From the NCBI GenBank assembly GCA_027623205.1, contig JAQBYC010000018.1, positions 1-52,055 of the forward strand: a stretch of 52,055 nucleotides of DNA, given 5' to 3'. This DNA is from Pseudomonadota bacterium (GTDB lineage: Bacteria > Pseudomonadota > Alphaproteobacteria > GCA-2731375). Numbering within the stretch: position 1 is the stretch's first letter; each line of letters begins with the position of its first letter. Position numbers and translations under genes: made by a program. Below, piece after piece: positions 1,584 to 52,055 of this stretch. Below the pieces are notes generated by a model. It made no database searches, was not told the origin of the DNA, and worked only from the letters and a program-made list of their open reading frames with translations.

Positions 1584-1610
1584 GGCGCGAATATGGCGTG
1601 ATTTACGGCT

Positions 1611-2780
1611 TCATGACAAGTTCATACGCGCACCATCCCAGGTTTTAGCCAACAGCATTCCTGCCGACAGACTGCATGCGGCGATGCCGGCCATGAAGAA
1701 ATAGGCGCCGTTGGCGAATTCCTGATACAGCATGCCGGCTATGGCCATGACCAGACCAACGGCGATACCGGCGCCGACCGCGCCATGCAGGCTTTGTGCC
1801 GTGGCGGACATTTCCGGCGGGGCGGCGCGGGCGATGAAATGCATGGCGCCCAAATGCGCGGCACCGAAGGTAAAGGCATGCAATCCTTGGGTCAGCAGTG
1901 CCAGCCATAGGGCATCGGACAATCCCATGGCGGTCCAGCGCACCACCCCCGCCAGGGCGCCCAGGACCAGCAGGTTGGCCGCGCCAAAGCGCGCTAGCAG
2001 GCGATTGCCCAACCAGAACAGGATGATTTCCGCTGCCACCGCTTCGGCCCACAGGGCGCCGATCAGGGTATCGGAGAAACCGACGCTGCGCCAATGCAGG
2101 GTGGCGAAACCATACAGCACCGCGTGGCTGGCATTGCCCAGCCCTCCCGCCAGCAAAAACAACAGGAATACCGGTTGCCGCAATAACCGCCCCATGGCGC
2201 CCGTCCGCGCAGGGGTCAGGGGGGTTGCCCGGCGTTCATCGGGCAGCAGGGCGCAGGCCAGCAATACCACGGTCAGCAGGGTCAGTATGGCCCATAGCAC
2301 GGACCAGGAGCCAAAGGCCGCCAGCATGGGTCCGCCGGCGGCGGAGGTCGTAATGAAGGTGACCGAACCCCAGATCCGCAGCCGGCCGTAATCCAGGCCC
2401 AGGCGGTAGACCGCTCCCAGGACCACCGTCTCGCCCATGGGTATGATCGAAGAGAACGCCACCGAGGCGATCAGATTGACCATAAGGAGTCCCCAAAATC
2501 CCTTGGCGAAAAGGAAACAGAGAAAACCCAGCATGGCGGCTCCGGACAGTAACAACAGGGGCCGTCGCCGCTCGCCCCGGCGATCGGCCCATTGCGCGAT
2601 CAGAGGATTGGCCAGCACGCGGAGCCAAAGGCCGGCCGATAGCAGCAGACCGATTTCGGTGGCCGACAGGCCGCGCGCTTTCAGGAAAACCGGCCAGAAC
2701 GGCGCCATCACTCCAACCACGGCGAAGACCGCGCCGAAATAAAATGAGAGGTGCCAAGCCCGAAGCATTGTTACGCGCAT
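1611..2780 (-). CDS. MFS transporter, phenylpropionate permease (PPP) type
   Basis: A protein of about 389 residues with some twelve hydrophobic segments. The motif DYGRLRIWGS followed by VTFI is typical of the PPP/HcaT-like branch of the major facilitator superfamily, as is QWADRRGERRRP after the second span. An upstream in-frame GTG-type start would add 17 unconvincing residues. I prefer the ATG of MRVTMLRAWHL because the first membrane span (SFYFGAVFAVVG) follows directly; MLRAWHL, four codons on, is also possible. It is divergent from the crotonase at 2862, leaving about 80 bp for two promoters, and probably forms an operon with the M81 peptidase gene. Its substrate cannot be read from the sequence; an organic anion or small amide is likely. 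Confidence 0.82.
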   Translation of the reverse strand: MRVTMLRAWHLSFYFGAVFAVVGVMAPFWPVFLKARGLSATEIGLLLSAGLWLRVLANPLIAQWADRRGERRRPLLLLSGAAMLGFLCFLFAKGFWGLLMVNLIASVAFSSIIPMGETVVLGAVYRLGLDYGRLRIWGSVTFITTSAAGGPMLAAFGSWSVLWAILTLLTVVLLACALLPDERRATPLTPARTGAMGRLLRQPVFLLFLLAGGLGNASHAVLYGFATLHWRSVGFSDTLIGALWAEAVAAEIILFWLGNRLLARFGAANLLVLGALAGVVRWTAMGLSDALWLALLTQGLHAFTFGAAHLGAMHFIARAAPPEMSATAQSLHGAVGAGIAVGLVMAIAGMLYQEFANGAYFFMAGIAACSLSAGMLLAKTWDGARMNLS

Positions 2781-2861
2781 AGTTCCGATTTGACCTATCA
2801 CATTGCCAGCAGCGCGGCTGAATGTAACCATAAAGCAGTTTGGGTGAATGGAGGAACGTCA

Positions 2862-3656
2862 ATGAATTACGATAAGTATACTTGTTTCCAAGCCAGCCGA
2901 CTGGGCCGTGTTCTGACCCTGACCATGAACCGTCCAGACCAATTGAACGCCGTCAATAAGGACATGCATGACGAACTGGGCAGCATTTTCTATGACGCCC
3001 AACTGGATGATGATGCCGACGTTATCGTCCTGACCGGCGCCGGGCGGGCTTTTTCCGCCGGTGGTGACCTGGCAATGATGAAGCGCATCGCCGATGGTTC
3101 CGACGAGCCCATGTTGCGCCTGGTTGATGCCAAGCGGATTGTCTTTTCCCTGCTTGATCTGGAAAAGCCGATTATTGCCGCCGTCAACGGCCATGCCATG
3201 GGCCTGGGCGCCACCATAGCCTTGTTGTGCGATACCATCTTCATGTCATCGAAAGCCAAGATCGGCGATCCGCATGTCAAGATCGGTGTGGTGGCTGGTG
3301 ATGGCGGCTGTGTCATCTGGCCGCAATTGATCGGCTATGCCAAAGCCAAGGAGTACCTGATGACCGGCGATCCCATTGGCGCCGAGGATGCCGAGCGCTT
3401 GGGCCTGATCAACCATGTGACCTTGCCGGAGGAAACCCTGACGGCGGCCCAGGCCTTTGCCAAGCGCCTGGCCGACGGCCCCACGGCGGCGATCCGCTGG
3501 ACCAAGGTTTCCGCCAACATCGGCCTGAAGCAATTGGCCCATTCGATCATGGATACTTCGTTGGCCTATGAATGGCTGACCTTCCAATCGGCTGATCACA
3601 AGGAGGCGATCAGCGCCTTTCTGGAAAAACGCGAGCCGGTCTTCGGCAATACCTGA
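2862..3656 (+). CDS. crotonase-family protein (enoyl-CoA hydratase/isomerase fold)
   Basis: The start is the ATG at 2862, behind a strong GGAGG. The 264-residue protein has the crotonase fold: an N-terminal TMNRPDQLNAV strand-loop, the oxyanion-hole segment GRAFSAGGDLAMM, and the second oxyanion region NGHAMGLGATIALLCD. The two glutamates used by classical enoyl-CoA hydratase (rat Glu144 in GGGCE and Glu164 in QPE) are replaced here: the first position is Thr (GLGAT) and the second is His (DPHV). A standard hydratase reaction is therefore unlikely, and an isomerase, decarboxylase or thioesterase variant is more plausible. A GST gene follows about 85 bp downstream on the same strand. Confidence 0.85.
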   Translation: MNYDKYTCFQASRLGRVLTLTMNRPDQLNAVNKDMHDELGSIFYDAQLDDDADVIVLTGAGRAFSAGGDLAMMKRIADGSDEPMLRLVDAKRIVFSLLDLEKPIIAAVNGHAMGLGATIALLCDTIFMSSKAKIGDPHVKIGVVAGDGGCVIWPQLIGYAKAKEYLMTGDPIGAEDAERLGLINHVTLPEETLTAAQAFAKRLADGPTAAIRWTKVSANIGLKQLAHSIMDTSLAYEWLTFQSADHKEAISAFLEKREPVFGNT

Positions 3657-3741
3657 TAGGATTGCTGCAACAGATTGGCCTTTGCCCTGCCCGGCGTTTG
3701 CCTGGGCATCCAGGCCGCATTTTGGGAAAAGGAACGCCGTG

Positions 3742-4359
3742 ATGTTGAAAGTTTATGGCCGCAGCAATTCGGTCAACGTCCAGAAAGTCATGTGGGTGAT
3801 TGGCGAGCTGGGCCTGGACAGCGAGCGCCTGGACGTGGGCGGGCCGTTTGGCCAGAATGACCAGGATTGGTATCTGGCCCTGAACCCCATGGGCCGGGTG
3901 CCGGTGCTGGATGACGATGGATACGTCCTCTGGGAAAGCCATTCCATCATCCGTTACCTGGCGCGGCAGTATGGCAGCGATCTGTATCCCAGCGATGCCA
4001 AGGCCTGTGGCGACGCGGACAAGTGGATGGACTGGCAGATCGGCTTTCAGCAACCAGCCATAACGCCGGCGTTTTGGGGTTTGATCCGCACGCCCGAAGC
4101 TGACCGGGACATGGCCGCCATTCATGCTGCGTCAAAGGAAACCGCGGCGCTGCAAGGCATCGTGGACCGGCACCTGCAGGGACGCGACTTCATGGCCGGC
4201 AAGCATTTGACTCTTGCCGATATCCCCGTCGGCGCCATGACCTACCGCTGGTACGGCCTGGAGGTGGAGCATCCGAATTACCCGAACCTGCGCGCCTGGT
4301 ACGACCGCCTGACCCAGCGCCCGGCCTACCGGGAACATGTGATGTTGCCCATAACATAG
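3742..4359 (+). CDS. glutathione S-transferase family protein
   Basis: The 205-residue cytosolic GST begins at the ATG of MLKVYGRSNSVNVQK; an earlier in-frame start would add 20 residues that do not look coded. The thioredoxin-like N-terminal domain carries Ser8/Ser10 near the usual catalytic position, the cis-proline segment GRVPVLDDDG, and the glutathione-contacting WESHSIIRYLA. The all-helical C-terminal domain includes GKHLTLADIPVG, the conserved folding motif. It is probably cotranscribed with the preceding crotonase, so it may act on a catabolic intermediate or protect against an electrophile. It is convergent with the ureidoglycolate lyase gene. The GST class cannot be assigned with confidence. 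Confidence 0.88.
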   Translation: MLKVYGRSNSVNVQKVMWVIGELGLDSERLDVGGPFGQNDQDWYLALNPMGRVPVLDDDGYVLWESHSIIRYLARQYGSDLYPSDAKACGDADKWMDWQIGFQQPAITPAFWGLIRTPEADRDMAAIHAASKETAALQGIVDRHLQGRDFMAGKHLTLADIPVGAMTYRWYGLEVEHPNYPNLRAWYDRLTQRPAYREHVMLPIT

Positions 4360-4435
4360 GCTTACCTGAGGCTGCATGGGGCGGCTCTGCGCGCGTCGGC
4401 GTTGAGCAGCTCTAAAATACAATTACGTGGTGCTG

Positions 4436-4921
4436 TTACGCGACGTTGAGACGGAATGGTTCCGGCAGCGTGCTCCAATCCTCGTCCCGGGGTCCGCCGT
4501 CCATGTACATCAATAACGCAAATGTCGAGGGGCGGTCCAAACTGGTGAGGGGAAAATGCCAAGTGCCCGCGTTGTAGTTTATGCCGACCTGCCCCGGTAC
4601 AATGAAGGCACGTAAAGTTGACAAATCAGGCGGGCCGTCTTTGCCTTGCTGCGCGGCTGCGATCACTAAATAGCGGTCGCAGTCGAGCGGCAAAAACGCC
4701 TGCGACGACAACGGGTGCCGCTCCATCTTTATCACCTCGATGGGAAGTTTCTTGGGCGGCAAGGCCCGCACCACGCCAAGATTGATGGCAAGGCCGGGCC
4801 GGCCGTTGGATAGCTGGGCCACATAGTCGCTACGGTTATCTGGCCCCGGGTCGGACAACACCTGCCCATAGGGTTCAAACGCGGCTTCTTGAATCGGTCG
4901 AGCGACGAGTTCGCGCATCAT
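4436..4921 (-). CDS. allA: ureidoglycolate lyase family protein (AllA-like)
   Basis: A protein of about 161 residues matching the AllA family along its length: KMERHPLSSQAFLPL, then PDLSTLRAFIV, GINYNAGTWHFPL and a C-terminal MDGGPRDEDW. AllA releases urea from ureidoglycolate to give glyoxylate in purine/allantoin breakdown. The motif with the conserved glutamate and His (ERHP) and the Trp-His pair (GTWH) are both present. I place the start at the tandem ATGATG at 4921/4918 because AAGAGGAAC lies just upstream; the longer 185-residue reading adds 24 residues with no family match. The gene stands alone, but its role fits with the PuuE-like, amidase and aminotransferase genes at 39.4-43 kb. 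Some AllA-fold proteins act on other ureides. Confidence 0.8.
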   Translation of the reverse strand: MMRELVARPIQEAAFEPYGQVLSDPGPDNRSDYVAQLSNGRPGLAINLGVVRALPPKKLPIEVIKMERHPLSSQAFLPLDCDRYLVIAAAQQGKDGPPDLSTLRAFIVPGQVGINYNAGTWHFPLTSLDRPSTFALLMYMDGGPRDEDWSTLPEPFRLNVA

Positions 4922-5030
4922 GTTCCTCTTAGGGCCAGGGCCATAAATCATCGGGGATATCGACCCTCGCATACATTGACCATGGTCCTCCACTAAATTT
5001 GCCCATGGCCGCTACTGCTGGGTTTGCGAA

Positions 5031-6551
5031 TTACGGCGACTCGGTTTGCGTTTTGGCGCCGCCCAACTGTTCAATGATGCGGAATTTCTGCACTTTGCCC
5101 ATGGGGTTGCGCGGTAGTTCGCCGACGACTTCGATCCGGCGCGGGACCTTGAAGCCGGCCAGGCGTTCGCGGCAGAAGGCTTCCAGGTCCGCCCCGTCGA
5201 TGCGGGCGCCGGCGCGGGGCACCACCATAGCCGTGACCATTTCGCCCCAGCGCTGGTCGGGCAGGCCGACCACGGCGGCCTCCAGGATGTCCGGGTGTTC
5301 GTGCACGATGCGCTCCACCTCCGCCGTGTAGATGTTCTCGCCGCCCGAGATGATCATGTCCTTCTTGCGGTCGACGATGCACAGGCGGCCATCGGCCTGC
5401 CAGATGCCGATGTCGCCGGACATCACATAGCCCCGGTGCCGGACCGCCTCGGTCGCCTCGGGCCGGCCCAGATAGCCGTCAAAATGGGTCAGGCTTTTCA
5501 CCGCCACTTCGCCGGCCTCGCCCACGCCGCAGGGCTCGCCCGCTTCGTTGAAGACGGCGACCTCGTTGCCGAATGTGGGCCAGCCCACGGAATGGGCCAA
5601 CAGGGTGTCCGGGTCCTTCACCTCGAAGGTCACCCAGCCGCCCTCGGTCCAGCCATAGGCCTCGGTAACCCGGGCCCTGTGGAACATCGCCATGGCGGTG
5701 CGGGTCAAGGACAGCGGCCCCGGCGCACCGGACGAGAGCATCAAGCGGAGGGCATCGACGGGCGGTTTGTCCAGGCGGCGCCATTCCTCTTCCAACATGG
5801 CGGTCATGGAGGGTACCAGGAAGGCGAACGTGCAATGCGCGGCTAACTCAGCCAGGGCCAGTTCGGCGCGGAACTCCGGCATGATGCGGACCCGGGCGCC
5901 GATGCACAGCGCCGCCATGGACAGCCCGGCATAGGACAGATGGAACAGCGGCCCCGGCACCAGCATGACCTGATCCGCCGTCAAACCGAACTCCCAGCCC
6001 CAGCGCATCAGGGCGGTCAGGTAGTGGTCGTTGGAATACAACGCGCCCTTGGGGAAACCCGTGGTGCCGGAGGTATAGCCGACCACGCAGGGTTCCGACC
6101 CGCGCCGGGCTTCACCCAATTCGGGCCGGGCAACGGTGGCGGGCGTGGCGATATCCTCGACCCGGAACACCTGGGCGCCGTGGGCGGCGCCGACCTTACC
6201 GGCGACCTTGGCGAAGGCGCCCCCGGTCAGGATCACTTTCGCATCGGCGTCCTGGACCACAAAGGCGATTTCCGGTTCCGCCAGGCGGGTAGAGATGGGC
6301 ACCGCCGCCACACCCGCCATCTGGCAGGCCAGATAGGCCAGAACCGCATCGGCGTTGTTGGGCAGCAGCAGGGCGGCCATACGGCCATGGCGCCCTGCCG
6401 GCGCCGCCGCAAGGATCGCCGCAAGCGCCACCACCCGGCACCAGGCCTGGCCATAGGTTAGGCTGGGACCACCCTCCAAAACTTCGATGGCGATGCGGTC
6501 AGGATGGGCCAGCGCCCGGATGGCGACATTTTCCGCAATGGAAAGGCGCAT
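5031..6551 (-). CDS. AMP-forming acyl-CoA synthetase/ligase
   Basis: A 506-residue ANL-superfamily adenylating enzyme that activates a carboxylic acid through an acyl-AMP, usually to a CoA thioester. The P-loop-like core A3 is YTSGTTGFPKG (159-169), followed by AYGWTEGG (A5), the SGDIG/DRKKDMIISGGENIY hinge segment (A7-A8) and the C-terminal PRNPMGKVQKF with catalytic Lys486 (A10). It is the last gene of a four-gene operon, 10 bp after the beta-ketoacyl synthase. That arrangement suggests it activates the acid that the synthase or downstream enzymes use. The chain length and aromatic versus aliphatic preference cannot be told from the sequence. Confidence 0.9.
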   Translation of the reverse strand: MRLSIAENVAIRALAHPDRIAIEVLEGGPSLTYGQAWCRVVALAAILAAAPAGRHGRMAALLLPNNADAVLAYLACQMAGVAAVPISTRLAEPEIAFVVQDADAKVILTGGAFAKVAGKVGAAHGAQVFRVEDIATPATVARPELGEARRGSEPCVVGYTSGTTGFPKGALYSNDHYLTALMRWGWEFGLTADQVMLVPGPLFHLSYAGLSMAALCIGARVRIMPEFRAELALAELAAHCTFAFLVPSMTAMLEEEWRRLDKPPVDALRLMLSSGAPGPLSLTRTAMAMFHRARVTEAYGWTEGGWVTFEVKDPDTLLAHSVGWPTFGNEVAVFNEAGEPCGVGEAGEVAVKSLTHFDGYLGRPEATEAVRHRGYVMSGDIGIWQADGRLCIVDRKKDMIISGGENIYTAEVERIVHEHPDILEAAVVGLPDQRWGEMVTAMVVPRAGARIDGADLEAFCRERLAGFKVPRRIEVVGELPRNPMGKVQKFRIIEQLGGAKTQTESP

Positions 6552-41548: not shown

Positions 41549-42955
41549 TTAAAGGGGAGGGTGGCGGTTGTGCCAGTCCGTGGCGCCTTCATAGGCGGCG
41601 GCAATACGATAGATCATGGCCTCCTGGAAATTCCGGCCGACGATCTGCATCGCCAGGGGCAGGCCGTCGCCATCGAAACCGATGGGCAATGACAGCGCCG
41701 GGTTGCCGGTCAGATTGAAGGGCGCGCGGGCCTGGCGGGCGTATTTCAGGGCAATTTCCGCCGCATCGTCAATCACAAAGGGCGGGTCCATGGAGGAGGC
41801 GACAATGACCCCATCCAGCGCCCGGATGGTCTGATTGAAGCCAGCGGTCAGTTGCCGGCGCAGGCGCAGGGCATCCACATAGTCATCCGCTGTCAGAAAG
41901 GCGCCGGGCAGGACCCGTTGCAGGAACGAGGCGCTGTAGTCACCGGGCCGTTCCGCGAGCCAGCGGCGGTGGATGGCATAGGCTTCCGATACCAGGATCA
42001 CCCGGTTGCAGGTGCTGTAGGTGGCCAGGGGCTCGGTCTCTATCTCGGCCACCCCGGCGCCCAGGTCCTGCAATACCCGCACCGCGTCTTCGATGGCCGC
42101 GGCCACTACGGGATCGGCGATCATGTCACGGTTGTGGAAATGGCGAATGACGCCAAGGCGCAACCCCTTGACGCCCTGGTCAAGCTGGGCGGTAAAATCG
42201 GGGACCGGCACATCGGCCGAGGCCGGGTCGGCGGGGTCATGACCGGCCAGGGCATTCAACATCAGGGCATTGTCGGCCACCGTGCGGGTCATCGGCCCCA
42301 CGTGATCCAGGGAATAGGACAGGGGCGTCACGCCATGGCGGCTGACCCGGCCATAGGTCGCCTTCATGCCGACGATGCCGCAGGCCGTGGCCGGATTACG
42401 GACCGAACCGCCGGTGTCCGTGCCCAGCGCCATGGGCAGGAACCCCGCCGCGACCGCCACGCCGGAGCCGGACGAGGACCCGCCGGGAAAACGCTCCCGG
42501 TTCCACGGATTGCGGGCCGGCGGCCAGGGCAGATCGAACGATGGTCCGCCCAGGGCGAATTCGTGGGTTGCCATTTTACCCAGCAGGATCCCGCCCGCCG
42601 CCCGCAGGCGTCTGGTCACCGCGGCATCTGCGGTCTTGGGCGGCTGCTGGGCCAGGATTTGCGAATGCGCCGTGGTCGGCAGGCCCGCGGCATCGATAAT
42701 ATCCTTCAGGCCAAAGGGCACGCCATGCAAGGGGCCCAAGGGCCCGCCGGTCCGCACCGCCCGCGCGGCGGCCTCCGCCTCCACCAGGACGCTTTCGGAC
42801 AGGACCCGCAGGAAGCTGTCCAACCGCCCGTCATGCGCCCCGATCCGGTCCAGCAGGCATTGCGCGTAGACCACGGGCGACAGCGCGCCGGTGCGGATCC
42901 GCGCCGCGACCTCGACCAGGCTTAAAAAAGCCAGTTCCTCTCCGGGCTTAGACAT
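41549..42955 (-). CDS. amidase signature enzyme, AtzE/GatA-like
   Basis: A 468-residue amidase with the Ser-cis-Ser-Lys triad: Lys in GVPFGLKDII, cis-Ser in FPGGSSSGSGVAVA, and nucleophile Ser in GTDTGGSVRNPA. I choose the start MSKPGEELAF because it overlaps the end of the small upstream gene by 8 bp. That small gene encodes an AtzG-like subunit. In s-triazine degradation AtzG binds amidase AtzE (1-carboxybiuret hydrolase), so this amidase is best read as its AtzE-like partner. Whether the substrate is a carboxybiuret, an allophanate or another ureide is open. Confidence 0.85.
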   Translation of the reverse strand: MSKPGEELAFLSLVEVAARIRTGALSPVVYAQCLLDRIGAHDGRLDSFLRVLSESVLVEAEAAARAVRTGGPLGPLHGVPFGLKDIIDAAGLPTTAHSQILAQQPPKTADAAVTRRLRAAGGILLGKMATHEFALGGPSFDLPWPPARNPWNRERFPGGSSSGSGVAVAAGFLPMALGTDTGGSVRNPATACGIVGMKATYGRVSRHGVTPLSYSLDHVGPMTRTVADNALMLNALAGHDPADPASADVPVPDFTAQLDQGVKGLRLGVIRHFHNRDMIADPVVAAAIEDAVRVLQDLGAGVAEIETEPLATYSTCNRVILVSEAYAIHRRWLAERPGDYSASFLQRVLPGAFLTADDYVDALRLRRQLTAGFNQTIRALDGVIVASSMDPPFVIDDAAEIALKYARQARAPFNLTGNPALSLPIGFDGDGLPLAMQIVGRNFQEAMIYRIAAAYEGATDWHNRHPPL

Positions 42956-43145
42956 TGTTGTCGGGCTGAAAAATATGGCCTGGTTCGTCGGCAATATCCG
43001 CTGGCCGGCGCAGGCGCCGGGCCATGGCGCGGCCGCCGTCATAGGCCTGGCGCAGCAACGCCGGCTGCGCGTCATACAGCGTCCCCAGGCCCAGTTGCCG
43101 GGCCAGTTGTTCCAGGGCGGCGTCGTCCAGATTGTCGTTGCTCAT
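42948..43145 (-). CDS. AtzG-like small amidase subunit (DUF4089 type)
   Basis: The 65-residue protein begins MSNDNLDDAALEQLARQLG, continues with a helix TLYDAQPALLRQAYDGGRA and ends with EPGHIFQPDNNV. The pattern of two helices followed by a Glu-Pro-x-x-x-Phe-x-Pro tail is the AtzG/DUF4089 pattern. The start ATG overlaps the HyuB stop (ATGA), and its end overlaps the amidase start by 8 bp, so the three proteins are made in step. AtzG stabilises the amidase AtzE. The match is from pattern, not alignment. Confidence 0.65.
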   Translation of the reverse strand: MSNDNLDDAALEQLARQLGLGTLYDAQPALLRQAYDGGRAMARRLRRPADIADEPGHIFQPDNNV

Positions 43146-44767
43146 ATCCCGTCCTTCGTCACATAGCCCTGCCGGTGGTCCCAGGCGGCAGCGTCCTTGC
43201 CGCGGGCCTTGGCTGAACCATAGCCGCCCCCGCCCGGCGTGGCGATCAATATGCGATCGCCAGTTTGCAAATGATGCTGGGCCCGGTTGTCCGCTTCCAC
43301 GCCGTTGATCCGCACGGCGCCGACTTCGCCTTTTCCACCCCCCGCCAGCCCCGGCGCCCCATAACGGGTACGTTCCGCCATGAAGGTGACGGCGATGGGG
43401 CTTTCTGACAGGCTTTCGATCAACATATCCTGGCCCAGACCGCCGCGATGCTGCCCCGCGCCGCCTGAATTGGGACGCAGGCGCTTGTAGTGAAACAGCA
43501 GGGGCGCCGATTGTTCCGCGACCTCCACCGGCGTGGATGACAGATTGGATGGCCAGGAAATGGCGTGCTCCCCATCGGCAGCCGCGGTCGCGCCCATGCC
43601 GCCGTTGAAGAACAGATTGGTGGCATAGGGCTGGCCATTGGGCCGCACCCCGGATTGCGTGCAGTTCCACAAGGGCGAGCCGGCCGCCGCCATGACCCGG
43701 TCCGGCAACACGCCGGCCAAGGCGCCGAAGGCCAGGATGGGGACATAATGGCCGGTGCTGGCCCGCGCCCCGACAGCGGCCGGGGGCAGGGGGTTCAACA
43801 GGCTGTTCTCGGGCGCCGTTACGGTAATGGGCCGCAACATGCCGGAATTGTTCGGCACCTCGGGCAACAGCGCGCATTTTATGGCATAGGCGGACATGGC
43901 ATAGGTATAGCAGAACGGGCAATTGATCGCCCGGGGCTGCACGGGCGAGGTCCCGGTAAAATCGAAATGCGCCTGGTCGCCCTTGATGGTAAGGCGCAAG
44001 GCAAAGTTGAAGGGCGCATCGGCCCGCAGCCCGTCGGTCAGCATCTGGTAGGGGTAGGTCCCGTCGGGAACCGCTGTCAGGGCGGCCCGCATGGCGGCCT
44101 CCGTGCGGCCGTTCAATTCCCGTGACAGCTCAACCAGATCGTCCAGGCCATATTCCCCCAACAGGGTCAGCAGCCGGTCTTCGATCAGATAGTTGGCGGT
44201 GATCTGGGCGTGAATATCGCCTTCGGTCTGCTCCGGCGTGCGGACCTGGGCGCGCAATAATTCAAAGAAGGTCTGGTCCTCTTCCCCGCCGCGAAAGATC
44301 TTCAACAGGGGAATATGAAAGCCTTCTTCGAAGATTTCCCGCGCCTCGACGGATCGGATGCGGCCACCGATATCGGGCATGTGGGACGCCGTGGCGGCAA
44401 ATGCGACCAGGCGCCGGTCCTGGAATATGGGGCGCACGATGCTGCAATCGTTCAGGTGCCCGGTGCCCAGCCAGGGATCGTTGGTGCAGATCACATCGCC
44501 GGGGTTCAGGCCATCGCGCCCGAAACGGTCCAGGGTGTGGCGGACGGTGGCGGGCAGGGTGCCGATGAACGAGGGAATGGAGCCGCTGTTCTGGGCCAGC
44601 AGCTGGCCGGCGCTATCGCACAGAACACAGGCGAAATCATTGGCCTCGTTGGACAGGGTGGAAAACGAGGTGCGCACGATGGCCTTGGCGGCCTCGTCAA
44701 CGCTGGCGATCATCCGGTTCCAGATTATTTCCAGGGTCACGGCATCGAAAGCGCGTGGGCTGTTCAT
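43142..44767 (-). CDS. hyuB: hydantoinase/oxoprolinase subunit B (HyuB)
   Basis: The 541-residue HyuB-family protein carries VICTNDPWLGTGHLNDCSI, HMPDIGGRIRS and the late RYGAPGLAGGGKGEVG and IATPGGGGYG. With HyuA it forms an ATP-dependent ring-opening enzyme for hydantoins, 5-oxoproline or acetophenone-type carboxylations. It overlaps HyuA by ATGA upstream and the AtzG-like gene downstream by ATGA. The strongest clue to its substrate is the neighbourhood of amidases and a PuuE-like enzyme, which points to a cyclic amide. Confidence 0.93.
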   Translation of the reverse strand: MNSPRAFDAVTLEIIWNRMIASVDEAAKAIVRTSFSTLSNEANDFACVLCDSAGQLLAQNSGSIPSFIGTLPATVRHTLDRFGRDGLNPGDVICTNDPWLGTGHLNDCSIVRPIFQDRRLVAFAATASHMPDIGGRIRSVEAREIFEEGFHIPLLKIFRGGEEDQTFFELLRAQVRTPEQTEGDIHAQITANYLIEDRLLTLLGEYGLDDLVELSRELNGRTEAAMRAALTAVPDGTYPYQMLTDGLRADAPFNFALRLTIKGDQAHFDFTGTSPVQPRAINCPFCYTYAMSAYAIKCALLPEVPNNSGMLRPITVTAPENSLLNPLPPAAVGARASTGHYVPILAFGALAGVLPDRVMAAAGSPLWNCTQSGVRPNGQPYATNLFFNGGMGATAAADGEHAISWPSNLSSTPVEVAEQSAPLLFHYKRLRPNSGGAGQHRGGLGQDMLIESLSESPIAVTFMAERTRYGAPGLAGGGKGEVGAVRINGVEADNRAQHHLQTGDRILIATPGGGGYGSAKARGKDAAAWDHRQGYVTKDGI

Positions 44768-46863
44768 GACGCATCCTCCGGCAGTTCAATGATCAGATTG
44801 CCGCTGGCGGAAAGCTGAAAGCGTCCGCCGGGTCCGATGACCATGGTCGATTCCGCTTCCTCGACCACGGCGGGGCCGTTAAAGGTTTCCCCGGCGGTCA
44901 GGGCGGCGCGGTCATGGATCGCAGTGGCCACGGCGCCGTTGGTCTCGGGGAAATAGACCGCACGCTGGCGCTGTCTCGCCGGGGGGCGATCCGGACCCTG
45001 ATCCGGTCTCTGGGCCGGATCATCCACAACCGGCACGCCCCTGGCCGTCAGGCGGACCCGGATAGCCGCGATGGCGACGGGAACATGTGGCGGTGGCCGG
45101 GTGAAATGAAGCCGATAAGCCTGTCCATAGGCGTCCAACAATCTATCGTGGCTGGCGGCGGTGTAGGGGCCGGGGGGCAGGGTCACCACCAGTTCAAAAC
45201 CCTGGCCGATGTTGCGCAGATCGGCCAGCCGCTGCACCTGGGCGCTGGCCGCATCGGCGCCGGTGTCGGCGATGACCTGGCGGGCGGCGGCCTCCAACTC
45301 TTCATAGGCGGTTTCCAGGGCCGCCCAGTCCAGCGCGTCCAGGGCGGCGGCGAAGGCGGCGGTGCGGTCCACCCGGGCCGGGGCCAGCAGCAAACCAAAG
45401 GCCGAGGCGACACCGGCATTGCGGGGACAGACGATGCGTTTGATGCCCAGCTTGCGGGCCAGATAATAGGCATGCACCGGGCCGGCGCCGCCCGTCGCCA
45501 CCAGGGTGTAGGCGCGCGGATCGCGGCCTTTTTCGGCAATATGAACCCGCGCGGCCGAGGCCATGTTCTCGTTCACCAGATCATGGATGCCCCAGGCCAG
45601 TTTCTCCCCGTCCAGGCCCGCCTGGCCGGCCAGGTCCTGAATGGCGGCGCGGCTGCCGGGCAGGTCCACATCGATGGCGCCGCCGGCAAAGCCTTCCGCC
45701 GCCAGATAACCCAGGACGAAATCCGCATCGGTGACCGTGGGCGCGGTGCCACCCCGGCCATAGGCCACGGGTCCCGGCACGGCGCCGGCGCTGTCCGGTC
45801 CGGCCTTCAACAGACCCAGCGCATCCAGGCGGGCGATGGAACCGCCGCCCGCACCGATCTCGATCAGTTCGACGGCCGAGATACGAATGGGCAGGCCGCT
45901 GCCTTCGGCGAAGCGGCGTTCCCGGGCCGCCTCGAAGCGATAGGCGATGGCGGGTTCCGCGCCATCGATCAGGCACAGTTTCGCCGTGGTGCCGCCCATA
46001 TCGAAGGCCAGGATATGCTCCAGCCCTTCGGTCCGGCCAATATCGGCGGCGGCCAGGGCGCCGGCGGCGGGACCGGATTCCAGCATGTGCACGGGCGCGC
46101 GGCGCACCTCGCCCACATGGGTCAAACCGCCGCTGGACAGCATCAATAACAAGGGCGCGGTAATCCGCCGCGCGCCCAGACGGCTGTTCAGGGCGTCCAG
46201 ATAGTCCCGCGCCAGAGGTTTCACATAGGCATTGGCAACGGTGGTCGAGGCCCGCTCGAACTCGCGGATTTCCGGCGCCACATCGCTGGACAGGCTGATC
46301 GCCAGATCGGGCAGCAAGGCCGCCAGACGGGCGCCGGCGGCCTGTTCGTGGCAGCCGTTGCGATAGGCATGCAGGAAGACGATGGCCAGCGAGGTAACGT
46401 GCGCCGATTGCAGCGCGGCGGCGATCCCCGGCAGGGCATCGGTGTCCAGGGCCTGATGGACGCTGCCGTCCGCCAGCAGGCGTTCGCCCACCTCGAAGCG
46501 CAGCTCCCGGGGCACCAGGGGGCGGGGCTTTTTCGCCGCCAGATCGTAAAGGTCGTATTTCCGCTCGCGCCCGATCTCCAGACTGTCGCGGAAACCCGCC
46601 GTGGTCAAAAGCGCGGTTTTGGCGCCTTTGCGTTCAATAAGGGCGTTGGTGAACAGGGTCGTGGCGTGGACCACCCGTTCGATGTCATCGGCGGCAACGG
46701 CTTCATCGCGCAGTACCTGGTCCACCGCCGCCAGAACGGCGGCGGCCGGATCGCCCGGCGTGGTCAGGATCTTGCGGGTCAGGCGCCGGCCCCCGTCGCG
46801 GCTATACAGGACCACGTCGGTGAAGGTACCGCCAATATCGATGCCCAGGGCGTAACGGCTCAT
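44764..46863 (-). CDS. hyuA: hydantoinase/oxoprolinase subunit A (HyuA)
   Basis: The 699-residue ATPase subunit has the ASKHA-type phosphate-1 motif LGIDIGGTFTDVVLY at the N-terminus, the conserved VVHATTLFTNALIERKGAKT, FDMGGTTAKLCL (phosphate-2), IGAGGGSIAR, and a C-terminal HyuA domain. It activates the ring amide by ATP for hydrolysis with HyuB. The start region is duplicated by 13 bp (see repeat at 46857-46880), so an extra ATG lies upstream out of frame. It is 92 bp after the TPP subunit gene, the largest gap in the operon, and might have an internal promoter. Confidence 0.93.
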   Translation of the reverse strand: MSRYALGIDIGGTFTDVVLYSRDGGRRLTRKILTTPGDPAAAVLAAVDQVLRDEAVAADDIERVVHATTLFTNALIERKGAKTALLTTAGFRDSLEIGRERKYDLYDLAAKKPRPLVPRELRFEVGERLLADGSVHQALDTDALPGIAAALQSAHVTSLAIVFLHAYRNGCHEQAAGARLAALLPDLAISLSSDVAPEIREFERASTTVANAYVKPLARDYLDALNSRLGARRITAPLLLMLSSGGLTHVGEVRRAPVHMLESGPAAGALAAADIGRTEGLEHILAFDMGGTTAKLCLIDGAEPAIAYRFEAARERRFAEGSGLPIRISAVELIEIGAGGGSIARLDALGLLKAGPDSAGAVPGPVAYGRGGTAPTVTDADFVLGYLAAEGFAGGAIDVDLPGSRAAIQDLAGQAGLDGEKLAWGIHDLVNENMASAARVHIAEKGRDPRAYTLVATGGAGPVHAYYLARKLGIKRIVCPRNAGVASAFGLLLAPARVDRTAAFAAALDALDWAALETAYEELEAAARQVIADTGADAASAQVQRLADLRNIGQGFELVVTLPPGPYTAASHDRLLDAYGQAYRLHFTRPPPHVPVAIAAIRVRLTARGVPVVDDPAQRPDQGPDRPPARQRQRAVYFPETNGAVATAIHDRAALTAGETFNGPAVVEEAESTMVIGPGGRFQLSASGNLIIELPEDAS

Positions 46864-46880
46864 CTCAGGGGCTCATCTCA
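46857..46880. repeat. 13-bp direct duplication at the hyuA start codon
   Basis: GGCTCATCTCA occurs at 46857-46867 and again at 46870-46880, a 13-bp period. On the coding strand this duplicates TGAGATGAGCC, so a decoy ATG lies 13 bp upstream of the true one, out of frame and closed after three codons (Met-Ser-Pro-stop), its stop reading TGAGATG into the real start. Confidence 0.9.
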
Positions 46881-46955
46881 ACGTCTCATTCTTTGAGATT
46901 TTCACGGGCGGCGTGAAGGCGGGCGGCCAAGGCGACCGCCGGGGGGACAATGCCG

Positions 46956-47579
46956 TCATGGATGTCCCAACAGGGCCTCCCGGAAGCGGGTCTTGTGCCA
47001 GGAGGCGTCCCAGACGGTGCGCATCTTGGGCGGCTCGTTCACCGCGACCTTCAATAGAACAAAGGCGGCGCCGTTGCTGTTGCGCAGCATCTCACCCGCA
47101 TCGTGCAGTTCGGCTGTCTCGCGCACCGTGCGCACGGCGCCGATGCCGCCGCCCTGGGCCATGACCGCCAGATCCGTGCCCAGGCCGGTGTGGCTGCGCT
47201 GAAAGCCGGTCTCGCCATAATGTTCGTTGTCGACACAGATGATGCCCAGATTGGCCGGATTGGCCACCGCGATGGTGGCCAGGGTGCCTACGTTCATCAG
47301 CAATTCGCCATCGCCGGTCACCACGATGACGCGTTTGTTGGGCTGCGCCAGGGCCAGGCCCAGGCCCATGGAAGCGGCCGCGCCCATGGCGCCGCCAAAG
47401 CCGAAAACCCGCGGGTCGTCGCCCACGGCGGCCGTCACATCACCCTTGGCGCCGGCCAGGCCGGCCACGATCAGGACATCGCCCTGCATGTCCAACAGGG
47501 TTTTTACCGCGACGCGCCGGTCCAGATGGCCGGTCGCTGTCTTGCCGGCGGCGCGGGTGCCTTCATTCGGATCTGCCAT
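46956..47579 (-). CDS. TPP-dependent decarboxylase, beta-type (cofactor-binding) subunit
   Basis: The 207-residue protein has the TPP/Mg motif VVTGDGELLMNVGTL running to VDNEHYGETG, and GFGGAMGAAASMGLGLALA before it. It is the C-terminal half of a split 2-oxo-acid decarboxylase such as sulfopyruvate or phosphonopyruvate decarboxylase (ComE-like). The partner half is encoded 9 bp upstream. The two would make one active enzyme. The substrate is a 2-oxo acid, unknown here, perhaps the carbon product of the amide-degrading operon. Confidence 0.87.
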   Translation of the reverse strand: MADPNEGTRAAGKTATGHLDRRVAVKTLLDMQGDVLIVAGLAGAKGDVTAAVGDDPRVFGFGGAMGAAASMGLGLALAQPNKRVIVVTGDGELLMNVGTLATIAVANPANLGIICVDNEHYGETGFQRSHTGLGTDLAVMAQGGGIGAVRTVRETAELHDAGEMLRNSNGAAFVLLKVAVNEPPKMRTVWDASWHKTRFREALLGHP

Positions 47580-47588
47580 AATTCACCT

Positions 47589-48098
47589 CTAAAATTTCTT
47601 GGCGCCAAGCAGCTTTTGCCCCAGCAGGACAGCCACCGGCATTTCGTTTTGGAAGGCCATGGTGAGGGCCGCGCCGATGGTGCGGGCGACCTCGCCGGGC
47701 TCGTCGATCCGCAGGCAGATCACATCACAGGCTTCCAGTACGGGCTGGGTCGATTGGCCCATGGGCATTTGCCAGGGATTGCCCTCGCCGAAATCGCCCC
47801 GCATGGAGATCAGGGTCAGAAAGGGAAACCGTCCGGCCCGGATCAGGGACAACAGGTTGATGCAGTTGCCCACGCCGCTGCTTTGCATCAACAGGACGCC
47901 CCGGCTGCCGCCCAGATGGGCGCCCGCCAGCATGCCGACGCCCTCTTCCTCGGTGGTCAGGGCAATGGAATGCACCTCCGGGTCGGCGATGGATCGATCG
48001 ATCAGATGTTGGTGGCCCGCGTCGGGCACATAGGCGAACTGGTCGACGCCGCCCTCGCGCAACAGGCGGTAGGCTTCTTCCGGCCATTCAGTACTCAT
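47589..48098 (-). CDS. TPP-dependent decarboxylase, alpha-type (PYR domain) subunit
   Basis: A protein of about 169 residues with the catalytic Glu in LTTEEEGVGMLAGAH and LLMQSSGVGNCINLL, the PYR-domain marks of the split decarboxylases (ComD-like). I start at MSTEWPEEAYRLL; its ATG overlaps the stop of the upstream amidase (ATGA). The beta subunit follows 9 bp downstream. Fused forms of this enzyme type include phosphonopyruvate and sulfopyruvate decarboxylases, so a substituted pyruvate is the likely substrate. Confidence 0.85.
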   Translation of the reverse strand: MSTEWPEEAYRLLREGGVDQFAYVPDAGHQHLIDRSIADPEVHSIALTTEEEGVGMLAGAHLGGSRGVLLMQSSGVGNCINLLSLIRAGRFPFLTLISMRGDFGEGNPWQMPMGQSTQPVLEACDVICLRIDEPGEVARTIGAALTMAFQNEMPVAVLLGQKLLGAKKF

Positions 48099-49507
48099 GT
48101 TCGGCTCCATAGTTGTTGCGTCAGGATGCCCGTGCCGCGCTCCACCGCCTCGGCCGCATCCAGACATAGGTCTTCCCGCAGACGCGGGCCGATGATTTGC
48201 ACCCCCATGGGCACGCCATCGTGCAATCCGGTGGGGACGGCGGCGCTGGGCAGGCCCAAGGCGTTCACACCATACAGCATACTCTGCTCGTCCAGCATCT
48301 GCTTTACCCGCGCCGCGCCCTTCAGGTCCTCGCCTTGCGGGAAGGGCGGCACTTGGCTGACCGGCGCCAGCACCAGGGGATAATCTTCCATGAACACGCT
48401 CCAGGCCCGCAATAGACGGGTACGGTCGGCCAGGGCGCGCATATAGCCCTCGCCGTCGCGGGTGTTGGAGGCGGCCAGATAGTCACCGATAACCTGATTG
48501 ACATCCCCAGAGCCATATTCGCGGATCCCGGCCATCATCATCACCTTGGTGTCGGTCATCAGCAGGGTGCGCCAGTTTTCGGCGATCTCGGCCACCAGGG
48601 GCGGGTCCACGGTTTCGACGGCGTAGCCGGCATCGGCCAGCAGGCCGGCGGCCCGATCGATCGCCGCGGCGACCGCCCCATGACAGGCAATGCCGGCGGG
48701 CGTCTTGCTTACCGCCACCTTGAGCGGCGGGGCCAGGCGGGGGCCGTCCAGGGGGGCGGGCACCCACCAGGGGTCGCGGGCGTCGCGCCGGGCCATGACG
48801 GCCAGGGCCAGACGGACATCGCGGACTTCCCGCGCAATGGGCCCCTGCACGGACATCAATTGCAGGGTCGGCGGCCGTTCTTCGACCGCGGTCGGATTAT
48901 AGGCGGGCACCCGGCCCAGCGAGGGGCGGATCGTCGCCAGACCACAGGCATAGGCCGGATAGCGCAGCGAGCCGCCCAGATCGTTGCCGTGGGCAATGGC
49001 GCCCATGCCCAGGGCGACGGCGGCCGCCGCCCCGCCCGAGGAACCACCGGGGGTAATGTCGTGGTTCCAGGGGTTTTTGCTCAGCCCCCGCAGGGGGTTG
49101 TCGGTGAACCAGCGCAGGCTGAATTCCGGTGTATTGGTGCGCCCGATGATGATGGCGCCGGCCTGGCGCAGATTGGCGACCACGGGCGAATCCTCCGTCG
49201 CCACCACGTTGGCGAAGCCGGGCACGCCGTTGGTGGTGGCCTGTCCTCTTTGATCGACATTTTCCTTGATGGTGACCGGCACGCCGTGCAGCGGCCCCAG
49301 GGCCACCCCGCTGGCCGCAACCTCATCGGCCCGCCGGGCGGCGTCCATGGCGTCTTCGGACAGATCAACGGTCACCGCGTTGACGGCGGCGTTGGTCGCC
49401 GCCATGCGCTGGATCGCCGCATCGACGGCGTCCCGGGCGGTGATCCTGCCGGCGCGTATGGCGGCGGCGGTATCGGTGGCGCTCCATTGCCAGATCGGTT
49501 GGGACAT
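48095..49507 (-). CDS. amidase signature enzyme (second amidase of operon)
   Basis: A 470-residue amidase with Lys in GVPVTIKENVDQ, cis-Ser in TPGGSSGGAAAA and nucleophile Ser in GNDLGGSLRYPA. The start MSQPIWQWSATDTAAA is favoured, with GAGAG upstream; a longer frame has no family match. Compared with the amidase at 41.5 kb, it lacks an AtzG-like partner next to it, and its sequence is more like general aliphatic or aryl amidases. It lies 11 bp after the crotonase gene and overlaps the TPP gene by ATGA. The two amidases may act on successive amide bonds. Confidence 0.88.
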   Translation of the reverse strand: MSQPIWQWSATDTAAAIRAGRITARDAVDAAIQRMAATNAAVNAVTVDLSEDAMDAARRADEVAASGVALGPLHGVPVTIKENVDQRGQATTNGVPGFANVVATEDSPVVANLRQAGAIIIGRTNTPEFSLRWFTDNPLRGLSKNPWNHDITPGGSSGGAAAAVALGMGAIAHGNDLGGSLRYPAYACGLATIRPSLGRVPAYNPTAVEERPPTLQLMSVQGPIAREVRDVRLALAVMARRDARDPWWVPAPLDGPRLAPPLKVAVSKTPAGIACHGAVAAAIDRAAGLLADAGYAVETVDPPLVAEIAENWRTLLMTDTKVMMMAGIREYGSGDVNQVIGDYLAASNTRDGEGYMRALADRTRLLRAWSVFMEDYPLVLAPVSQVPPFPQGEDLKGAARVKQMLDEQSMLYGVNALGLPSAAVPTGLHDGVPMGVQIIGPRLREDLCLDAAEAVERGTGILTQQLWSRT

Positions 49508-49518
49508 GCTGCTCTCTC

Positions 49519-50259
49519 TCAATTCTTGACGAAGGCCTGCAGGCGTTCCTGGATGTCGGGGCCGCGGCCGGGGCTTTCCGCCATCTCGAACGCCAGGCCC
49601 TCGTGGAAGGTGAAATCCTGGCCGCGATTGTACAGCATCTTGTTGCCGCGCAGGGAGTGCCACGAGGTGGCCACGATGTCGGCCGCCAGTGCCCGCACCA
49701 TCGTTTCCAGCTCGTCATCCCCGACGCAATAGTTGGCCAGGCCCATGGCCGCCGCCTCGGCGCCGCTGTAGGCGCGCGCGGTAAAGCTCATTTCCTTGGC
49801 CTTCAGCGGCCCGATCCGCCGGGGCAGGCGCTGGCTCATGCCCCAGCGCGGGGTCATGCCCCATTTGCCGTGGGTATCGGAAAACGTGGCGGTGGTCGAG
49901 GCGACCAGCAGATCGCAGGCCAGGGCCAGTTCCAGACCGCCCGTATAGCAATGGCCCCGGATCTCGGCGATCACCGGCTGGGGCAGGTTTTCAAGCATAT
50001 TAATGGTGTCGGCCTGATAGGTGGGGGACGGGGCCTCCTGCCCCGCCTGGATGGCTTTCAGATCGTTGCCGGCGCAAAACGACCGCCCCGCGCCGCGCAG
50101 CACCACACAGCCTACATTGTCCACGTCGCCGGCGATGCTTTCCACATGGCCGCGCAATTCCACGAACAGATCCGGGCTCAGGGCATTCAACGCCTCCGGC
50201 CGGTTCAGGGTCAAGGTCGCGATCCCCCCTGCATCCGTGCGCAAGACCAGTTCCGTCAT
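49519..50259 (-). CDS. crotonase-family protein (enoyl-CoA hydratase-like)
   Basis: The 246-residue crotonase starts MTELVLRTDAGG behind GGAGAC. Oxyanion-hole parts are GRSFCAGNDLKAI and GHCYTGGLELALACD. The first catalytic glutamate is present (GGLELA, equivalent to rat Glu144), while the second position is changed to His (SDTHGKWG), so activity may be altered from hydratase. It is the first gene of the long minus-strand operon, with a 281-bp promoter region before it. Its presence suggests that the carbon skeleton of the ring substrate is processed as a CoA ester. Confidence 0.88.
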   Translation of the reverse strand: MTELVLRTDAGGIATLTLNRPEALNALSPDLFVELRGHVESIAGDVDNVGCVVLRGAGRSFCAGNDLKAIQAGQEAPSPTYQADTINMLENLPQPVIAEIRGHCYTGGLELALACDLLVASTTATFSDTHGKWGMTPRWGMSQRLPRRIGPLKAKEMSFTARAYSGAEAAAMGLANYCVGDDELETMVRALAADIVATSWHSLRGNKMLYNRGQDFTFHEGLAFEMAESPGRGPDIQERLQAFVKN

Positions 50260-50427
50260 CTGCCGTCTCCTCCCAAAATTCGCCGCTCTGATCGTCACGT
50301 CCTATGATACCCTCACGCGGGCCTAAAATGGCTTGGGAATTAGACGGATTTTTACAACTTTTTGCAAATGCGCAGGTGTGTTTCAGTCAATTTTCCGCGA
50401 AAGGCGCCAGCGGATAGAACAATAGCG

Positions 50428-50540: not shown

Positions 50541-52052
50541 ATGCCGGAATTTGAGACCCTGAAAAGCGCGGTCGCCGACCTGGGCGACGCGCTACGGGAC
50601 TCAAACGCGTTGCCGCCCCATTTTCCCTTAACCGAAGTTGGGGAACTTCTGGACGCCATCGCCCTGCTTTCGGAGAGCAGCGCGGATGAACTGCCGATCA
50701 AACTTCAGGCGGCTGAAAGCGCGCTGTCAGACCTGCGCCGAGCGTATGTGCCACGCGAAACGGCGCACAACGATGATGCGGAACTCCCGAGTTTCGCGCA
50801 GCTGCGACTTGCCACCAGCGACGTGATGGCCGAACTGCGGGGCGTGCTGTCGACCCTGGACCCGGTCGTTGTGGCGGCCGCGACGCCGACCGGCGATCAA
50901 CTCTCTGCTGCTGTGCCGGCGTTGGAAAACGATGCAATATTGGCCGAGATTGTCGGCGATACACGCCAGGCGGACGATGAGATCAAGCGTGGCCACACCA
51001 TAATTATCCAGCACGTGCAAAATTACGGTGTTATCGGCAGCATCAGCATCAAGTTGAATGATTTGACGATCAGCAATGCTCTTATCCGTATTACTGCCAA
51101 GCTTGATATGGTGCGGCTGCATTGGCTTGAGAAGCTGGCTGCGGGTTTGGCCAAGGCTCCCGATGCCATATTGAAGTTAGCTAAGGCTTTGCCGCTGGCA
51201 CTCGGCGCCATCGAGATTATCGCGCGGGAACTAAAGAAGGCGACGAGCCGGATTGTTGCCCATCTAGAGCAGTTTCTTGATAAATCGAAGCCGTCGCCGG
51301 TACGTAGGGACAGTCCCTACCTTTCCGTTTTCCGTGATGCTGATTGGTCGCCAGAGATGGTGGTGATCCCGGCGGGGACATTCCTGATGGGGTCGCCGGA
51401 GAAGGAAGATGATTACCATGAGAGGGAAGGTCCGCAACACCAAGTGACGATTGGGCGGCGTTTTGCCCTTGGCCTTTATCCTGTGACGTTTGAGGATTAC
51501 GAGCGGTACTGTGTCGCGAAGGAAAAGGAACCACCCGATGATCGAGGTTGGGGCCGAGGCCGGTGGCCCGTCATTAATGTCTCCTGGGACGATGCGCAGG
51601 CGTATATCAAATGGTTGAACGACGAATTGGATCTGCCCGGCGGTACCTATCGGCTGCCGTCGGAGGCGGAATGGGAATATGCCTGCCGGGCGGGGACGAC
51701 GAGCCGTTACTCGTTTGGCGACGATGAGGCGAAGCTTGACGCCTATGCTTGGCATGACGGCAACGCCGACGGTCAAACCCATCCGGTGGGCGAGAAGCTT
51801 GCCAATTCCTGGGGTCTTTTCGACATGCACGGCAATGTGTGGGAATGGACCGAGGATCGCTGGCATGCGGATTATACGGACGCGCCGCTGGACGGCTCCG
51901 CCTGGATTGACGGTAGCGACGAGAACCGTGTTCTCCGCGGCGGCGCCTGGTTCAACGATCCCGGGTACCTGCGCGCGGCCGTCCGCTACTGGCTCGGCAC
52001 CGGAAACCGAGACTACAACGGCTTCCGCCTTGCCAGGACGCTTTCGCGGTAG
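50541..52052 (+). CDS. FGE/C-type-lectin-fold protein with putative DGR variable C-terminus
   Basis: The 503-residue protein has a helical N-terminal region (about 1-250, low in aromatics, with TIIIQHVQNYGVIGSISI in the middle) of no recognised family, a linker, and an FGE-sulfatase domain from about 270: MVVIPAGTFLMGSP, WDDAQAYIKWLN, RLPSEAEWEYACRAG, and DMHGNVWEWTEDRW. The C-terminus VLRGGAWFNDPGYLRAAV, RYWLGTGNRDYN and GFRLARTL is where diversity-generating retroelement targets vary. The two cysteines of sulfatase-activating FGE are absent from the last 100 residues, so it is not a sulfatase activator. The gene ends three bases before the window edge. No reverse transcriptase is visible. 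Ligand-binding by the lectin fold is likely. Confidence 0.85.
   Translation: MPEFETLKSAVADLGDALRDSNALPPHFPLTEVGELLDAIALLSESSADELPIKLQAAESALSDLRRAYVPRETAHNDDAELPSFAQLRLATSDVMAELRGVLSTLDPVVVAAATPTGDQLSAAVPALENDAILAEIVGDTRQADDEIKRGHTIIIQHVQNYGVIGSISIKLNDLTISNALIRITAKLDMVRLHWLEKLAAGLAKAPDAILKLAKALPLALGAIEIIARELKKATSRIVAHLEQFLDKSKPSPVRRDSPYLSVFRDADWSPEMVVIPAGTFLMGSPEKEDDYHEREGPQHQVTIGRRFALGLYPVTFEDYERYCVAKEKEPPDDRGWGRGRWPVINVSWDDAQAYIKWLNDELDLPGGTYRLPSEAEWEYACRAGTTSRYSFGDDEAKLDAYAWHDGNADGQTHPVGEKLANSWGLFDMHGNVWEWTEDRWHADYTDAPLDGSAWIDGSDENRVLRGGAWFNDPGYLRAAVRYWLGTGNRDYNGFRLARTLSR
51951..52019 (+). other. putative diversity-generating retroelement variable region (VR)
   Basis: The codons between Trp470 and Gly494 give TTC AAC GAT, GGG TAC, GTC, TAC TGG CTC, AAC, GAC TAC AAC at the positions that vary in DGR targets. 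They are interleaved with constant CTG CGC GCG GCC, CGC, GGC ACC GGA and CGA. Most of the variable codons end in C or T, as expected if they came from AAC/AAT template codons by change of A only. The constant frame RGGxW-xxxP-xxLRAA-xR-xxxGTGNR-xxNGFR matches known VRs. The template repeat, needed as proof, is not in the window. Confidence 0.6.
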
Positions 52053-52055
52053 CGA

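Follow-up and report, generated by a model that had tools for sequence, protein, structure and literature searches.

Introduction

In the diversity-generating retroelement (DGR) of the Bordetella phage BPP-1, the sp sequence found 3' of the template repeat (TR) folds, recruits the complex of reverse transcriptase (RT) and Avd (bRT-Avd) and primes cDNA synthesis (PMC12875486). DGRs are also found in cells, where those of clade 5 diversify putative conflict-system sensors, as described by Dore et al. 2024 for Thiohalocapsa PB-PSB1 (PMC10907252), and where the targets of the Treponema and Legionella DGRs are described as outer-membrane lipoproteins (PMC10907252). For targets that are remote from their RT, Roux et al. 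2021 state that assembly fragmentation sets a limit (PMC8144416).

The window analysed here, a stretch of DNA of 52,055 nucleotides, is the entire contig C39 of G000, a draft genome in 228 contigs. The end of this window is, with a probability of roughly 0.93, the variable repeat (VR) of a genuine DGR target with a mechanism as in the known DGRs and, with a target, an Avd, an RT and a TR in one genome, it adds one more example to a type of system that was already known. It has in common with the BPP-1 DGR the TR, the VR, the Avd and the RT, an IMH-like C/G difference at the end of the repeat, a hairpin behind the VR and a structured RNA 3' of the TR, but the order is avd-RT-TR in place of the avd-TR-sp-brt of BPP-1, and the target is not a phage tail protein. 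The cellular DGR target TvpA of Treponema denticola (PDB 2y3c) has the FGE/CLec fold and a C-terminal VR as the target studied here; TvpA is described as a surface lipoprotein, whereas the N-terminus of the window target is helical. With the DGRs of Thiohalocapsa PB-PSB1 (PMC10907252), this locus and its relatives share FGE-type lectin targets, several targets per DGR, incomplete or trans-served loci, loci shaped by duplication, and partner domains of the caspase/TIR/peptidase type, a comparison with clade 5 that is based on shared features. Unlike Thiohalocapsa PB-PSB1, the system appears here as an inserted island in one species of its genus, with no close RT in the ten other members of the genus that were searched, and the helical N-terminal part of the window target has no named domain.

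Target gene and FGE domain

The gene at the right edge of the window (50541-52052, plus strand) encodes a protein of 503 amino acids. A first-pass annotation of this DNA had claimed that the gene stops three bases before the contig end and that its C-terminus has a pattern typical of the variable region of a DGR. The TAG stop codon is indeed at 52050-52052, and the constant frame RGGxW / LRAA / R / GTGNR / NGFRLAR is present at the C-terminus as it had been read; the claim of a DGR is borne out by a TR, an Avd and a DGR-type RT in the same genome, and by a VR that differs from the TR mainly at the adenines of the latter.

A single Pfam domain was detected in the target, FGE-sulfatase (PF03781, E=1.5e-55, residues 271-499). 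This C-type-lectin-like domain (51351-52037, plus strand), which displays the variable residues, is identified by the Pfam match, the structure model and the structural matches, and in the model it is mostly above a pLDDT of 90. The N-terminal part (50541-51320, plus strand) is mostly helical and is modelled with low confidence. The search of these N-terminal 260 amino acids gave no Pfam match and no homologue among 14 genomes of the same order, from which the target as such is also absent. When Foldseek was run with the target model, PvdO came first and T. denticola variable protein 1 was among the best matches; this protein (2y3c), a DGR target with this fold whose structure has been solved, is also the second-best match by sequence in the PDB. 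By the Pfam match, the model and the Foldseek search, the VR is located at the 3' end of a gene for a C-type-lectin-like domain. Two other contigs of G000, C163 and C129, also match the FGE domain of the window, and were rejected as FGE paralogues lacking a VR or TR anchor.

The catalytic pair of human FGE, Cys336 and Cys341, is found near the C-terminus of the enzyme. The HMMER alignment ends before the position of this pair, and in the target no cysteine occurs in residues 440-503, where the human enzyme has the pair.

Reverse transcriptase cassette

The search of the G000 genome with the RT_1 profile retrieved two RTs, on contigs C96 and C136. The RT of C96 was rejected as a partner, being of the group II intron type (TPQGGPLSP) and unrelated to the VR. 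The minus strand of C136 (4629 bp) carries, in this order, the 3' end of a target with its VR (VR136), the Avd, the RT and a TR of 117 nt (C136:2752-2868, minus strand), which is a near-copy of the VRs with adenine-restricted differences. In RTs of the DGR type, [LIV]GxxxSQ replaces QGxxxSP and is accompanied by xxDD. The RT of C136, which is above the RVT_1 cut-off, has IGNLTSQ at 213 and YVDD at 245 and is of this type. The Avd obtained 104.5 bits with NF033474, for which the NCBIfam cut-off is 80, is also above the cut-off of bAvd PF22296, and is the only Avd found in the genome. A sister target is found on C159, where a caspase-SH3-FGE gene ends in VR159.

The open reading frame of the RT continues through the TR. 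This was considered as a conserved coding extension and rejected, given that the frame differs among relatives and several RTs end before the TR. Between the TR and the right edge of the island, a gene (L040:1863-2585, minus strand) encodes a protein of 240 amino acids made of repeats of about 40 residues (GAVxxxKLADGAV), which are also seen in the DNA; the protein matches no family above cut-off. Short partial copies of the end of the TR and its 3' flank are found away from any TR at C136:1763-1804 and C127:5052-5089.

Variable repeat and adenine rule

The window VR (VR39; 51926-52041, plus strand) has changed at 14 of the 30 template adenines and at 4 of the 84 other bases when compared with the C136 TR (hypergeometric p=7e-7). 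For the sister repeats the bias is of the same kind, with 19/32 adenines and 1/85 other bases differing in VR136 (p=2e-12), and 18/32 and 1/85 in VR159 (p=1e-11). Given that the mismatches of the window VR concentrate on TR adenines (p=7e-7) and that the same positions are hypervariable in 33 related targets, this pattern is not due to chance. The hypervariable codons (51951-52019, plus strand) are those of residues 471, 473, 475, 476, 481, 483, 484, 485, 491 and 492, all of which differ from the TR. In the alignment of the 33 targets, invariant columns are interspersed with variable ones at exactly the positions that had been named from the window sequence.

Several expectations of the first-pass annotation were thereby confirmed in part. 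The near-copy that it had foreseen for 51940-52045 exists as the TR of C136, and the true VR turned out slightly longer than that region. Where the annotation had looked for the partners within 1-5 kb to the right, they are on a separate contig, with the unassembled interior of the probable island between them and the target. Of the eight codons that it had derived from AAC or AAT, seven are AAC in the template, and the exception, GAT, comes from AAA; two additional changed codons, GGG and TGG, come from AGG in the TR. The accessory gene, TR and RT that it had expected to accompany the target are all present in G000, on C136, but in the order VR-avd-RT-TR and not VR-avd-TR-RT.

The sole non-adenine difference common to all three VRs is found in their constant 3' end, which is IMH-like (52020-52041 in the window, plus strand). 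There, the C of the TR is replaced by G in GCCAG[G/C]ACGC in the window VR and in both sister VRs, and this difference sits where the difference between IMH* and IMH would be expected. This change, seen in 3/3 VRs, is accompanied by a hairpin behind the VR. On C136 and C159 the hairpin has 8 bp and follows the VR immediately; in the window (GCTTTCGC-GGTA-GCGA(AAGC), 52040-52055, plus strand) the first arm, the loop and half of the second arm are visible, the remainder being cut by the contig end. A hairpin immediately behind the VR was rejected as a general feature of the lineage, since it was found at that position in 1/39, and a perfect stem of at least 7 bp, forming a GC-rich hairpin, is found within about 100 nt behind the VR in 24/40, compared with 8% in random stretches. 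Behind many VRs of L046-L083, pyrimidine-rich TTTACCTC repeats are followed by a GC-rich hairpin.

Template of the window repeat

The window VR carries three non-adenine changes beyond those of the sister VRs (TCT to GCC and TCC to CCC), and it is shorter than the sister VRs and the C136 TR by one AAC codon, a 3-nt deletion. For this reason, it has not been copied recently from the C136 TR as this now stands. The CCC and the missing AAC mean that the C136 TR may not be its template at all, and that this may be an older or a second TR. A tentative proposal, which we regard as possible though not as the favoured one, is that this genuine DGR target has a second TR as its template, one whose 3' flank begins contig C105, perhaps within a collapsed avd-RT-TR copy right behind C39. 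Contig C105 opens with the final 7 nt of a TR and, behind them, another copy of the RNA element that flanks the TR, and is identical to C136 over 69 nt before it diverges; C39, however, matches C136 over its last 41 nt and not 69, so the assembly graph gives a C39-C105 join no direct support. The CCC of VR39 stands where the C136 TR, VR136 and VR159 have TCC, a position at which 29 of the 33 related DGR targets have proline, and one AAC codon is missing from VR39. Against a second TR, the assembly shows a single Avd and a single DGR RT.

The extra non-adenine changes and the 3-nt deletion that set the window VR apart from its sisters could also be read as those of a retired target, formerly diversified and now frozen, that is carried along in the island. 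This is unlikely, given that the reading frame is intact, that the changed adenines bring neither a stop nor a frameshift, and that the IMH-like end and the visible part of the hairpin are identical to those of the sister VRs. It is far less credible still that the gene encodes an ordinary FGE/PvdO-like protein with a C-terminus that merely resembles that of a DGR target. While the FGE family carries RGGxW...GFR regardless and PvdO is the best PDB match, the C-terminal 60 residues of the target hold no cysteine, and a 117-nt near-copy with adenine-restricted differences adjoins an RT and an Avd in the same genome. We keep to the reading of a genuine DGR target, on which the DGR would presumably act.

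On C105 (L148), the second RNA element copy is followed at 365-5430 by a row of genes of 560, 182, 219 and 203 amino acids with no family above cut-off, which continues with one of 519 amino acids containing DUF4384 and with the start of a caspase-like gene resembling that of C159.

Probable island and empty site

G002, which belongs to the same genus, gave no match to the DGR RT. In this genome, the enoyl-CoA hydratase gene to the left of the target and the amidohydrolase gene that follows the C136 cassette have orthologues (88% and 92% at the amino acid level, respectively) that are adjacent and divergent. The G002 site is colinear with positions 41835-50369 of the window on one side and, on the other, with C136 descending from 1634; only 37 nt of G002 separate the two alignments. 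The left edge of the island is placed at 50336-50370, the last stretch colinear with the empty site, where a 35-nt match (window 50336-50369) is followed 37 nt on in G002 by the match of C136 that descends from 1634.

Given that the flanking genes are adjacent in G002, which lacks the RT, a single inserted island most likely has the window target at one end and the RT cassette at the other. On the simplest reading, the alignments reflect one insertion with its left end about 170 nt before the target, its right end after the C136 cassette, and an interior that is unassembled. This reading rests on one empty site, because in the other genomes of the genus the two orthologues are on separate contigs or are not neighbours. 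Contigs C159 and C105, which have repeats in common with C136 and no real match in the G002 stretch, are for this reason candidates for the interior of the island.

Related loci and the RNA element 3' of the template repeat

The scan of the named genomes with the DGR RT yielded 56 loci. The repeat search with the adenine-bias test covered 41 of these, 32 of which proved to have a TR. For 30 of the 32, the TR is located at the end of the RT match or shortly behind it, and the VRs are upstream in most, so that most relatives show the order VR-avd-RT-TR; in L084 and L089, which have more distant RTs, the TR is before the RT. An FGE domain is present in 33/33 aligned targets of related DGRs, and at the N-terminus it is joined by, among others, caspase, TIR, ankyrin, kinase and WD40 domains. 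The order VR-avd-RT-TR and the FGE targets with caspase, TIR, ankyrin or kinase domains match known cellular DGRs, and such targets would fit the conflict-sensor proposal of Dore et al. 2024 (PMC10907252).

In a genome of the same family, the locus L149 (G012:C202) contains an Avd, an RT cut to approximately its first 50 residues that runs into an FGE target, and a caspase-SH3 gene; this reflects either the loss of the RT from a DGR or an error of assembly. Another genome of the family, G013, has about 20 near-identical RT genes of 487 amino acids, which similarity alone assigns to the group II intron type.

A structure of 21 pairs, common to 29 sequences, follows the TR directly on its 3' side. 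This covarying RNA structure, found by covariation and model search, is located at L040:2668-2760 (minus strand) and at L148:1-91, and related loci have it on the 3' side of their TR. The paired cells amount to 92.9%, compared with 75.9% in shuffles, 109 cells are changed on both sides compared with 35, and the covariation score is 0.521 compared with 0.196, with every slid control at or below 0.148. The element is laid out as an outer stem that closes on the last bases of the TR, an inner hairpin, and then GTCCAGGG..GGTCATGATGA. The model built from the 29 sequences retrieved 15 further loci outside the training set (E <= 2e-11), always near an RT match or at the expected place, one of which, L056, is a close sister of the model member L055. 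The model misses the distant RTs that have the TR in front. In G000 it finds two convincing copies, on C136 and C105, and a search of C136, C159, C105 and the end of C39 against Rfam gave no match.

Discussion

The proposed mechanism follows that of the known DGRs. The C136 TR would be transcribed jointly with the structured RNA behind it, and the RT-Avd complex would copy the TR RNA with misincorporation opposite adenines. The cDNA would then replace the VR between the 3' constant end, IMH-like and with the hairpin behind, and the 5' homology. As an outcome, about a dozen codons for the lectin-fold face of the protein would be rewritten, while codons that have no A in the template would stay fixed. 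By analogy with the caspase-bearing sister on C159, the target is probably a binding sensor that can be diversified, with an N-terminal part that serves for signalling or as an effector.

The RNA element, rather than the target, is the strongest of the new leads. Its likeness in position to the sp of BPP-1 suggests the same role for the RNA that flanks the TR. We lean, by a modest degree, towards the view that the element of this TR-last lineage is a distinct and as yet unnamed RNA family that would recruit RT-Avd and prime cDNA synthesis as sp does, in another gene order. The element gives access to the question of how RT-Avd locates its template in TR-last DGRs, and may provide a new search model for them.

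The present case also shows that a DGR target can be recognised at a contig edge from its last 35 residues, and that fragmented assemblies hide DGRs, given that three contigs break here at or near VR/TR repeats. The island adds a caspase-FGE target and an FGE target with a novel N-terminus to the cellular DGRs that have been proposed as variable immune sensors.
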